From Bacillus sp. KH172YL63 (GTDB lineage Bacteria > Bacillota > Bacilli > Bacillales > Bacillaceae_B): a DNA stretch of 64,000 bases. Shown one piece after another: positions 6,857-47,784 of this stretch. The notes under the pieces are model-generated. The model was not told the origin of the DNA, did no database searches, and saw only the letters and a list, made by a program, of their open reading frames with translations. The position numbers and the translations under genes are program-made. Each line of letters starts with the position of its first letter. Within the stretch, counting starts at the first letter, position 1. The stretch is taken from the NCBI RefSeq assembly GCF_011398925.1, contig NZ_AP022842.1, positions 15,001 to 79,000 of the forward strand, read 5' to 3'.

Positions 6857-6902
6857 TAAGCGGTCGGCAGGTCGGGGAAGATATAAGGGGTTGTGTGTCA
6901 AT

Positions 6903-7318
6903 GATGCTTGTCGCCTCTGAGCAAAGCCGCCTCCGCTTTTCGTGATGTCCAGCTCCAGCGGCTAGTCCCTCGAGGTCATAAGCTAAACCGACCAAAAAGG
7001 CAAAGAGCGCCTTTCCGGTCGATTCATCTTATGCTTGTCGGGCCTGACCAAGCCGCTTCCGCTTTTCGATTGTCTAGCTCCGGGGCTTAGAGGCTCGAGG
7101 TCATAAGCCAAACATGCCAAAAAGACAAAGGGCGCCTTTCCGGCATGTTCGCCTTATGCTTGTCGCCTCTGAGCAAAGCCCCTCCGCTTTTCGTGATGTC
7201 CAGCTCCGGCGGCTAGTCCCTCGAGGTCATAAGCTAAACCGACCAAAAAGGCAAAGGGCGCCTTTCCGGTCGATTCATCTTATGCTTGTCGGGCCTGACC
7301 AAGCCGCTTCCGCTTTTC
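6903..7318. repeat. Cluster 1 of about 120-bp palindromic repeats (one right-half, three full copies)
   Basis: A right half-copy (6903-6941) then full copies at 6945-7068, 7070-7192 and 7195-7318. Each starts near TGTCYAGCTCC and ends near TTCCGCTTTTC, with matching inverted arms: CATAAG..CTTATG, a variable inner arm, and a central AAAGGC..GCCTTT hairpin. Inner arms differ but still pair: CGACC/GGTCG in copies 1 and 3, CATGCC/GGCATG in copy 2. Outer arms alternate GCGGC/GCCGC (copies 1, 3) and GGGGC/GCCCC (copy 2). The cluster lies after the dacA terminator and before the pdxS promoter. No gene content; open frames in it lack ribosome sites. Confidence 0.9.
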
Positions 7319-40559: not shown

Positions 40560-41991
<1,432 letters not shown>

Positions 41992-41998
41992 CCATATG

Positions 41999-42033
41999 AA
42001 GGCTAAACGCATGACGCGTTTAGCCTTTTTTTG
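41999..42033 (+). terminator. rsmA terminator
   Basis: AAGGCTAAACGC paired with GCGTTTAGCCTT, then T7. Confidence 0.92.
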
Positions 42034-42073
42034 ATGGACAGGGTCCAGAGAGAGTGGTTGTTTGCTTGAAGGT

Positions 42074-42439
42074 TAGCTCCAAGGGCTTGAGGCTCGAGGT
42101 CATAAGCCAAGGCACCCAAAAAGGCAAAGAACGCCTTTCCGGGTGCCTCGTCTTATGCTTGTCGCCTCAGAGCAAGCCCCTTCCGCTTTTATTGTATCCA
42201 GCTCCGGCGGCTAGCCCCTCGAGGTCACAACTGAAAAATCCCATAAGGCAAAGAACGCCTTTTGGGATTTCCCCGTTGTGCTTGTCGGGCCTACCCAAGC
42301 CGCCTCCGCTTTTATGATATCCAGCTCCAGGGGCTTGAGGCTCGAGGTCATAAGACGAGGCACCCAAAAAGGCAAAGAACGCCTTTCCGGGTACCTCGTC
42401 TTATGCTTGTCGCCTCAGAGCGAGCCCCTTCCGCTTTTA
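42074..42439. repeat. Cluster 2 of about 120-bp palindromic repeats (three copies)
   Basis: Copies at 42074-42190, 42193-42313 and 42315-42439. They share the TCC AGCTCC start and TTCCGCTTTT end, with central AAGGC..GCCTT hairpin. Arms co-vary: copies 1 and 3 have CATAAG/CTTATG, GGCACCC/GGGTGCC (one mismatch in copy 3) and GAGGC/GCCTC. Copy 2 has CACAAC/GTTGTG, AAATCCC/GGGATTT and GCGGC/GCCGC. Located between the rsmA terminator and the yabG promoter. No genes inside. Confidence 0.9.
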
Positions 42440-42472: not shown

Positions 42473-42599
42473 TCACAGGGAATATTTACTTAATTGATGT
42501 GAAGGGTGGAGAAGGGTTTGGCGGAGACAGATCCTCCTCGGCTTATTCATTTCCTTTTTTGATTGATCAACGAATGTTTAGCCCATGGGAGTGACTGAT

Positions 42600-43478
42600 G
42601 TGAATATCGAAATCAATGATGTCGTGGGGCGCCTTTCCTATCAATGTGATATTTTATTCAGGGTGATTGATATCCGCATGATAGATGGACATAAAACGGC
42701 AGTGCTGTATGGTGAAGATTTTCGATTAATAGCGGATGCTCCTTTTCATGATTTGAAGAAGATGGACCCTAGAGAGCAGGATCGTATTTCGAAGGAGTTT
42801 CGTTCCAAAGAGGAACAATCTCTCGGCTTATTTCGACAAGATATTGAGTTGCTCAAGTATAAGCAGGAATACAGGGTGACAAATGCTTATCGGGACGATT
42901 ATAACTATTTCCAGGTTCCGGGGAAAGTTCTTCATCTTGATGGAGATCCCAGCTATTTAAGAAAGTGCCTAGATCTTTATGAGAAAATCGGTGTACCGGT
43001 AAAAGGCGTTCACTGCAGTGAAACAGAGATGCCTCACCAAATCGGACCCCTTATCGATAAATATAGACCGAATATTATCGTATTGACCGGTCACGATGCT
43101 TATTCAAAAGCAAAAGGGGCCAAGGGAGATATTAATGCTTACCGACATTCCAAATACTTCGTCCAGGCTGTGAGGGAAGCCCGGAGCAAATCCCCCCATT
43201 TGGACCAGCTGGTGATCTTTGCCGGGGCCTGTCAATCCCACTTCGAATCCCTTATTCATGCCGGCGCCAATTTTGCAAGCTCACCGTCCAGGGTCAATAT
43301 CCATGCACTGGATCCGGTTTATATTGTTGCAAAGATATGCTTTACCGGATTCAAAGACTCTGTGAATGTATGGGACGTCATACGCAATACATTGACAGGG
43401 GATAAAGGCTTGGGTGGGATAGAGACAAAGGGTGTACTTCGTACGGGGATGCCGTACAAAATTTCGGAGGAAGACTAA
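42600..43478 (+). CDS. yabG: Sporulation-specific protease YabG
   Basis: 292 residues. Coat-associated peptidase (family U57) that trims spore coat proteins. Conserved segments GKVLHLDGD, LTGHDAYSK, and VIFAGACQSHFESLI, with Cys and His as likely catalytic residues. I start at GTG 42600, preceded by GGGAGTG; ATG 42585 would add five residues without a ribosome site. Confidence 0.95.
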   Translation: MNIEINDVVGRLSYQCDILFRVIDIRMIDGHKTAVLYGEDFRLIADAPFHDLKKMDPREQDRISKEFRSKEEQSLGLFRQDIELLKYKQEYRVTNAYRDDYNYFQVPGKVLHLDGDPSYLRKCLDLYEKIGVPVKGVHCSETEMPHQIGPLIDKYRPNIIVLTGHDAYSKAKGAKGDINAYRHSKYFVQAVREARSKSPHLDQLVIFAGACQSHFESLIHAGANFASSPSRVNIHALDPVYIVAKICFTGFKDSVNVWDVIRNTLTGDKGLGGIETKGVLRTGMPYKISEED

Positions 43479-47303: not shown

Positions 47304-47424
47304 TTGTGAGCCCGTAAGCTAAAATTGGCAATTCTTACGTTTTTGGTTCGGTGAAATGAAATCTCCTTTGAGGATCGTGTGTTTTTGATACTAGATTGGG
47401 ACTTTTAAATGGGAGTCTGATTTT

Positions 47425-47590
47425 ATTGCGTGAGATTGGCGGTTTATTGCGTAACTTTCGGGTATGATTGCGTGAGATTCAGCGTTCATTGCGTAACTTG
47501 TATTTTATTGCGTGACTTTCACGGATGATTGCGCAACTTTCGAGGTTTATTGCGTGAAATTCAGGGTTCATTGCGTAAATACATTTTACT
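47425..47590. repeat. 21-bp tandem repeat, 8 units, TTGCGT type
   Basis: Units begin ATTGCGT (one ATTGCGC) at 47425, 47446, 47467, 47488, 47507, 47528, 47549 and 47570. Period is 21 bp, one unit being 19. Odd units tend to read TTGCGTGA and even units TTGCGTAA. In reverse orientation it resembles the GACGCATAAA arrays (both contain CGAGGTTTAT or CGGAGGTTTAT before GCGT). Lies between the spoVG terminator and glmU. Confidence 0.88.
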
Positions 47591-47661
47591 GTGACAAAAG
47601 CACCGTCCGTTCTCCGTGCCGCAGGCTAAAAGCCAGAAGCCAGCCGCCTGCGCTTATCGCC

Positions 47662-47784
47662 ATGTCCAGCTCCAAGGGCTCGAGGCTCGAGGTCATAAGC
47701 CAAACAGTCCAAAAAGGAAAAGAACGCCTTTCCGGCCTGTTCGTCTTATGCTTGTCGCCTCTGAGCAAGCCCCTTCCGCTTTTC
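47662..47784. repeat. Cluster 3: single 120-bp palindromic repeat
   Basis: One full copy: TGTCCAGCTCC start, CATAAG/CTTATG arms, AACAGTCC/GGCCTGTT inner arm, GAGGC/GCCTC outer arm, TTCCGCTTTTC end. It is preceded by a short fragment resembling a right arm (47634-47658). It ends about 95 nt before glmU. Confidence 0.85.

Follow-up and report, generated by a model that had tools for sequence, protein, structure and literature searches.

A palindromic intergenic repeat of Bacilli whose paired arms change in step, with a probable folded minus strand

The array at 42 kb in the window, the 64-kb stretch of Bacillus sp. KH172YL63 DNA analysed here, belongs to a chromosomal, non-coding, array-forming palindromic repeat, with a unit of ~118 nt and spacers of 5–10 nt, that is found in several families of Bacilli. 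It occurs in dozens of copies across many Bacillaceae-type genomes and no matching Rfam entry was found. Its covariation indicates one folded strand without experiment. On balance, we favour a non-autonomous, REP/MITE-like chromosomal repeat that has spread via a folded minus-strand intermediate, either RNA or DNA. The spread of such repeats, the abutment of their fixed end on stop codons and any effect of theirs on gene 3′ ends, for example that of sigG, are now testable.

Repeat units in the window

Three units of 116–118 nt lie at 42073–42438 in the type order 2-1-2. They are assigned here to the minus strand, the inferred folded strand, the preliminary description having written them on the plus strand. 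W1 (type 2, 118 nt, 42073–42190), W2 (type 1, 116 nt, 42198–42313) and W3 (type 2, 118 nt, 42321–42438) are separated by two 7-nt spacers, ATTGTAT (42191–42197) and ATGATAT (42314–42320). W1 and W3 are 94% alike. The fold of the region is far better than that of shuffled sequences (z = −11.2; 0/100 shuffles equally good).

W2 belongs to a CACAAC/GTTGTG subfamily. As read from the plus strand, its P3 arms are CACAAC (42226–42231) and GTTGTG (42275–42280), and its inner arms are AAATCCC (42236–42242) and GGGATTT (42264–42270). The both-sided replacement that the preliminary description reported for the middle copy is therefore real, at 42226–42280. Its nearest member among the fetched own-genome copies is 94% identical (locus L016), and the subfamily is also present at sigG in one congener (91.5%). 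A unique local double replacement is ruled out by this presence elsewhere. We infer that the 2-1-2 array is an array with an ordinary subfamily member in the middle, not an element changing both arms in place.

The array is flanked on the plus strand by ksgA (rsmA, 41113–41991) and yabG (42585–43478). A terminator-like inverted repeat followed by a T-run (41999–42027, plus strand) is downstream of ksgA and upstream of the array. Full units occupy the site in 5/30 of the yabG loci fetched, and none of the others listed has the composition of W1–W3; therefore, the 42-kb array is probably young.

The second cluster, at 6.9 kb, begins at its left end with a truncated unit, the plus-strand 3′ half alone (about 6901–6940, minus strand). 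It continues on the minus strand with W4 (type 1, 6949–7066), W5 (type 2, 7074–7191) and W6 (type 1, 7200–7317). Its order of 1-2-1 is the reverse of that at 42 kb, as had been noted before and as the unit coordinates confirm. Both arrays come after the upstream gene's terminator-like hairpin and just before the likely −35 elements of yabG and pdxS.

A single unit, W7 (47666–47783, minus strand), lies upstream of glmU, so the window holds seven full units and one truncated half in total. Upstream of W7, at 47420–47600, there are about eight short direct repeats, ATTGCGTAACTTTC / ATTGCGTGAGATT, which make a second, different intergenic repeat. Strings akin to them adjoin a unit at another locus (L019).

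Unit anatomy and types

The units are 111–120 nt long (45 units extracted) and are read as profile match columns with insertions left out. On the plus strand, the first half runs CCAGC(TNC), P1, P2, CTCGAGGT, P3 and a variable P4, and the rest runs AAAGGC-AAAGNNC-GCCTTT, P4′, P3′, GCTTGTC, P2′, P1′, TNC and GCTTTT. The ends are mostly CCAGCT and CGCTTTT (42 aligned units). AGC/GCT pairs form close to the termini and the palindrome spans the whole unit.

The two types differ in P1 and P2, being GGCGGCT with CCC in type 1 and GGGGCTT with GAGGC in type 2. P1 and P2 vary separately, since some units combine a type-1 P1 with a type-2 P2 (for example L018, L023 and L024). The left P3 arm has 27 different versions among 411 distinct units, 8 of which carry the CACAAC/GTTGTG arms. 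One unit is split by ~80 nt that hold further short inverted repeats, CCCACAGGACGTGGG (L248).

Copy number and distribution

A covariance model was built from 42 units of the Bacillus sp. KH172YL63 genome, and unit counts exclude the matches with more than 8 gaps or not near full length. In this 4.25-Mb genome the model identifies 61 full units, grouped into 35 arrays, after 10 opposite-strand echoes and one partial match were dropped. The arrays comprise 21 single units and 14 arrays of 2–5. The genome-wide search that the preliminary description called for thus turned up many further copies.

Units were matched in 54 of the 61 genomes searched as relatives, own genome included, namely in 34/35 congeners and 19/25 other members of the order. 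The one congener without a unit by covariance search, G030, is on one contig; the other 34 have at least 25 matches each. G030 has six Y1 transposase matches. In a wider draw from the class, 16/151 genomes match, eight of them in the order (own included) and eight in one family of another order.

Among the matches listed (at least 120 stretches), the core motif is found in Rossellomorea, Cytobacillus, Metabacillus, Neobacillus, Peribacillus, Siminovitchia and Jeotgalibacillus. The genus of the present genome is most likely Rossellomorea. Letters like the unit sequence are, as we take it, also present in other Bacillaceae genomes. The motif is found as well on contigs labelled Pseudomonas sp. 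ISL-84 (L178 and L197), which are probably mislabelled or contaminated Bacillaceae DNA. With the single query W6, one of 72,556 plasmid records and none of 50,697 phage records matched.

No Rfam family reaches its gathering threshold over any unit in the window and at eight further loci, permissive matches being far below. Searches of the open-access literature listed no paper describing the repeat, and the matches listed by an exact-letter search concern unrelated subjects by their titles. In this sense the label of an undescribed element may hold, but the element is a family-wide repeat and not peculiar to the 42-kb cluster.

Paired arms changing in step

In the plus alignment of the 42 own-genome units, 93.1% of the stem cells are paired. 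The cells changed on both sides and still paired number 228, compared with 71 ± 7 in shuffles (0/500 as high), so the double-sided changes of the kind seen in W2 are beyond chance. Pairing is under selection, most likely on the reverse complement. P3 arms are perfectly complementary in 370/411 distinct units, unpaired arms being exceptional. Single arms are broken in some units, such as P1 at L013:2837 and L022:3079.

The preliminary description offered either selection for pairing or copying of one arm from the other. Selection is supported, probably on the complementary strand, but copying is not. In the latter, a polymerase would switch template in the hairpin and copy an arm from its partner in a single event, which we regard as very unlikely. 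The mostly complementary P3 arms would suit it, and so would the difference of W2 from its neighbours over whole arm blocks. Moreover, some same-locus pairs with four differences have one double change and no single one, so one-step events may occur in individual cases.

However, differences between the closest units are one-sided, and double changes become more numerous as divergence rises. Among the 411 distinct units, whose pairs are not independent, the single-sided and double-sided stem changes are 36 and 0 at an identity of at least 97.5%, 260 and 63 at 95–97.5%, 1076 and 930 at 92–95%, and 99,453 and 272,015 at 70–80%. Per pair, the single changes rise slowly with divergence (0.67 to 3.05) and the double ones fast (0 to 8.35). 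These trends fit stepwise compensation, where as expected a mismatch comes first and is later compensated.

Same-locus congener pairs with 2–8 differences have 382 single against 77 double changes over four sites (60/22, 177/18, 126/37 and 19/0 by site). Against copying are also the close relatives of W2 elsewhere and the strand bias of near-pairs described below, which symmetric copying does not predict.

The folded strand

It is probably the minus strand (5′-AAAAGCGG...GGAGCTGG-3′) that folds; the covariation fits it better than the plus strand. Plus-strand folding would tolerate G.T and avoid A.C; the reverse is found and therefore the minus strand probably folds. In four "mismatched" column pairs of 231 non-redundant units, A.C occurs 592 times and G.T five times. 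By column pair, A.C is found in 161/231, 111/228, 115/230 and 205/228, and G.T in 0, 1, 3 and 1. The remainder in the first three is largely Watson–Crick (63, 83 and 66), and the fourth scarcely varies.

These four A.C pairs resemble internal loops on the plus strand and are G.U on the minus strand. The conserved TNC/TNC likewise becomes a GNA/GNA loop on the minus strand in 216/231 units. In RNA folding, the W3 minus strand is predicted to have an uninterrupted 26-bp apical hairpin, which the G.U pairs close, with −74.7 kcal/mol against −64.0 on the plus strand. The minus strand is computed to be more stable in 217/231 units with RNA parameters and in 224/231 with DNA parameters. The strand reading draws mainly on these column-pair, loop and stability counts of the 231 units.

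The 35 other stem pairs lean the same way, kinship among units being handled by clustering at 93% or 80% alone. A.C exceeds G.T by 181 to 72 in 205 units clustered at 93% (28 vs 3 columns, p = 5e-6) and by 50 to 24 in 58 units clustered at 80% (20 vs 6 columns, p = 0.009). Unpaired sites lean the opposite way to stems (Fisher p = 7.5e-18). With unpaired columns of 75% consensus and pairs of 60% consensus, the corresponding changes are 65 vs 147 in unpaired columns and 97 vs 26 in stems. Hence an overall mutation bias is no explanation.

This reading is weakened by the concentration of the stem bias in the plus right arm, where 81 single transitions make A.C and 6 make G.T, compared with 16 and 20 in the left arm. 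It is also weakened by the figures from other families, where the A.C:G.T ratio is 27:21 (f32), 9:7 (f29) and 28:11 (f28 with one f27 region), and only the last is significant.

The minus alignment of the 42 units has 94.1% of cells paired and 28 double-changed pairs. None of 500 shuffles is as high or has as many pair types; the structure is taken from W3, which gives it an advantage in the sliding control. On the A.C excess, the stability and the minus-alignment counts, we reject the plus strand as the form whose folding is selected.

Position relative to genes and terminators

Each array has one fixed end, the plus-strand 3′ end with CGCTTTT, and one loose end. Genes in the following counts are long open frames, not annotations, and arrays near contig ends and orthologous duplicates (with similar right flanks) are dropped. 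The duplicates are retained in the counts for neighbour alternation, spacer-flank likeness and stop-adjacent strand bias. Flanking open frames accompany 135 arrays. In 49 of them the fixed end meets a convergent gene, on the minus strand, and the stop codon of 28 of these genes falls −1 to +5 nt from that end. No gene in the other three positions (86, 80 and 47 genes) has its near end in this range.

In genomes of other families, with regions chosen from the best-scoring matches listed and not at random, a stop codon is at −2 to +8 nt of the fixed end in 15/66 arrays, compared with 1/66 for the loose end. An open frame is overlapped by more than 60 nt in 18/135 arrays. Between two plus genes are 48 of the 109 classified arrays (the 135 minus 26 with far or missing neighbours). 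If the contig start is taken as the origin and the terminus is placed near mid-contig, 21–22 of the 35 own arrays are co-oriented with replication, which is near even. Mycobacterial MIRUs are also short tandem intergenic repeats abutting stop codons. The likeness to the present units is by description, and MIRUs belong to another phylum.

Stop-codon adjacency could reflect a host function. The main rival is that the minus hairpin acts in the 3′ UTR of the preceding gene's mRNA, in protection, termination or regulation, and that pairing is selected in place. We consider this unlikely, although several features speak for it. The arrays of sigG and the pepT-like gene are bounded by the stop codon on one side and, on the other, by a terminator-like hairpin common to unoccupied congeners, and the minus strand should be transcribed there. 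The stop-codon positions in 28/49 convergent genes, and in 15/66 against 1/66 arrays of other families, are as it would have them, and the G.U pairs and GNA/GNA loop look RNA-like.

However, the window arrays and many others are placed differently and have the same strand bias, the A.C:G.T ratio being 79:35 beside stop codons and 152:61 elsewhere. Only some congeners carry units at a given gene, and the minus strand would be antisense in the 48/109 arrays between two plus genes. As the strand bias is alike in stop-adjacent and other arrays, pairing is probably tested during single-strand propagation, not in situ.

Alternatively, the host might keep the units between its transcription units as plain intrinsic terminators or insulators. 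Their CGCTTTT follows the stem at the plus-strand 3′ end and the arrays are mostly outside long open frames. Moreover, a terminator-like hairpin with a T-run occurs within 150 nt to the left of 67/156 arrays but of 149/933 random windows, some of these being pseudo-hits from unit remnants. However, the window array and the sigG and pepT-like sites already have such hairpins. Stability is higher on the minus strand, where no T-run follows the stem in the window units, and one site can hold from none to several units. This makes a plain terminator role very improbable.

Terminator adjacency is thus present, yet not universal. The 60-nt flanks fold at z < −2 on the left in 23% and on the right in 8% of 148 arrays, compared with 10% of controls; the figure is 40% for 43 stop-adjacent arrays. 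Adjacency as a universal target rule is rejected by the left-flank figure.

Proposed propagation and known systems

Non-autonomous mobility of the repeat would, by analogy, work like that of REP/BIME or MITE. A single-stranded minus copy, of RNA or DNA, would have to fold into the long hairpin for propagation, and pairing would be selected at this step. After insertion, the arrays would expand and contract by recombination or slippage between direct repeats. A polymerase blocked at the hairpin would yield truncated halves.

A more specific scheme can be put forward only tentatively. The family may spread via a bottom-strand RNA or ssDNA that has to fold into the long hairpin, with the GNA/GNA loop and four mostly invariant wobble pairs. 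It would be re-inserted with the fixed end, often beside stop codons, to give tandem arrays with partly locus-specific spacers. If so, repeats in Bacilli would spread by a new mode.

BIMEs form arrays, too. REP/BIME with RAYT are alike in being chromosomal palindromes scattered between genes, for which movement as folded single strands has been proposed (PMC3733652, PMC6006769). The REP palindrome differs by its length of 20–40 nt against 118 nt here, and its GTAG or CGTC end tag is absent from the 42 aligned units (PMC3733652, PMC6006769). REP copies flank the RAYT gene, but no credible unit is within 1.5 kb on either side of the three own-genome Y1/RAYT-like genes.

For one of the Y1 genes, the part tested matches the model of REP-associated transposases with 58.1 bits (cut-off 80). 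Unit presence does not track Y1 genes, as three genomes have units without Y1 and six have Y1 without units. RAYT linkage is rejected on the neighbourhood of the own-genome genes and on the co-occurrence. Viral contigs searched with one Y1 protein gave no relative.

The repeat is, as MITEs are, short, non-coding and present in many dispersed copies (61 units in 35 arrays). By description it is also like bcr1, other MITE-like repeats of Bacillus and the stem-loop families of B. anthracis and B. halodurans, all foldable Bacillus repeats. The listed lengths of bcr1 are 147 and 167 nt in B. anthracis, and it is called specific to the B. cereus group by the title of a paper cited there (PMC2267715).

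Turnover, remnants and spacers

The occupancy of orthologous sites varies among congeners. The best 30 of 35–36 congener genomes were taken for each site. A full unit is present at 17/30 pdxS, 5/30 yabG, 14/30 sigG and 19/30 pepT-like loci. Occupied sites hold 1–4 units, and the number differs between congeners at all four.

A lone half is kept at several pdxS loci without a full unit (L251, L254, L258, L260 and L264). The half units there and at 6901–6940 end near the base of the P3 hairpin, which suggests that the hairpin determines the deletions. A CCGCTTTT-like end is found 4–11 nt ahead of the first full unit in 85 of 158 non-orthologous arrays. With a score of at least 8, 78 of these 85 extend as unit sequence over 9–115 nt. 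A shifted control gave 43 hits out of an unstated total. The remnants include 29 of 15–23 nt, ending near the P1 base, and 16 of 34–42 nt, ending near the P3 base; the longest are near-full divergent units.

The spacers are 5–10 nt long and no genes are between the units of an array. They resemble the host flank at the fixed end, matching at 3.57 of 6 positions against 2.79 ± 0.08 when shuffled (113 arrays). Spacer pairs are identical in 39/118 cases within an array, compared with 0.9% between arrays, and the units of those arrays average 84% identity.

Neighbours are of unlike type in 91/145 pairs, against 72.7 ± 6.0 when shuffled (1/2000 as high), so the types do tend to alternate, to a moderate degree. 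Likeness is higher between next-but-one units (0.864, n = 76) than between neighbours (0.805, n = 184), suggesting that dimers were duplicated. Polarised array growth is rejected. In orthologous arrays, the right-most units give 0.882 and the left-most 0.771 at pdxS, but the two are nearly equal at yabG, sigG and the pepT-like gene.

Integron attC sites fold on the bottom strand, lie next to stop codons and have a variable stem. The present units share all three features, with a fixed end sequence and with tandem arrays of partly locus-specific spacers. They might thus be sites whose folded bottom strand is cut and joined after stop codons by a site-specific recombinase. Unlike in integrons, cassettes are absent here, the units being 5–10 nt apart with no genes between them, and the orthologous arrays have no polarity consistent across the four sites. 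We hold such a site to be highly unlikely and keep to the folded minus-strand intermediate.

In 20 regions picked for their similar scores, only a single identical unit turned up at another site, one of its two loci being at a contig end. This counts against the mobile-repeat reading, as do the near-absence from plasmid and phage records with W6 as query and the lack of a link to the Y1 genes. Upstream of pdxS at two loci (L269 and L271), the unit is inside another repeat (GATTGGAGTGGAAGACGAAGACTCCTGCGGGA ... CCGCGGAAAGCGA ... TCTTCCACGGAAAT). Additionally, CCCGCAGGAGTCG is in the right flank of several other arrays, so the two repeat families are sometimes together.
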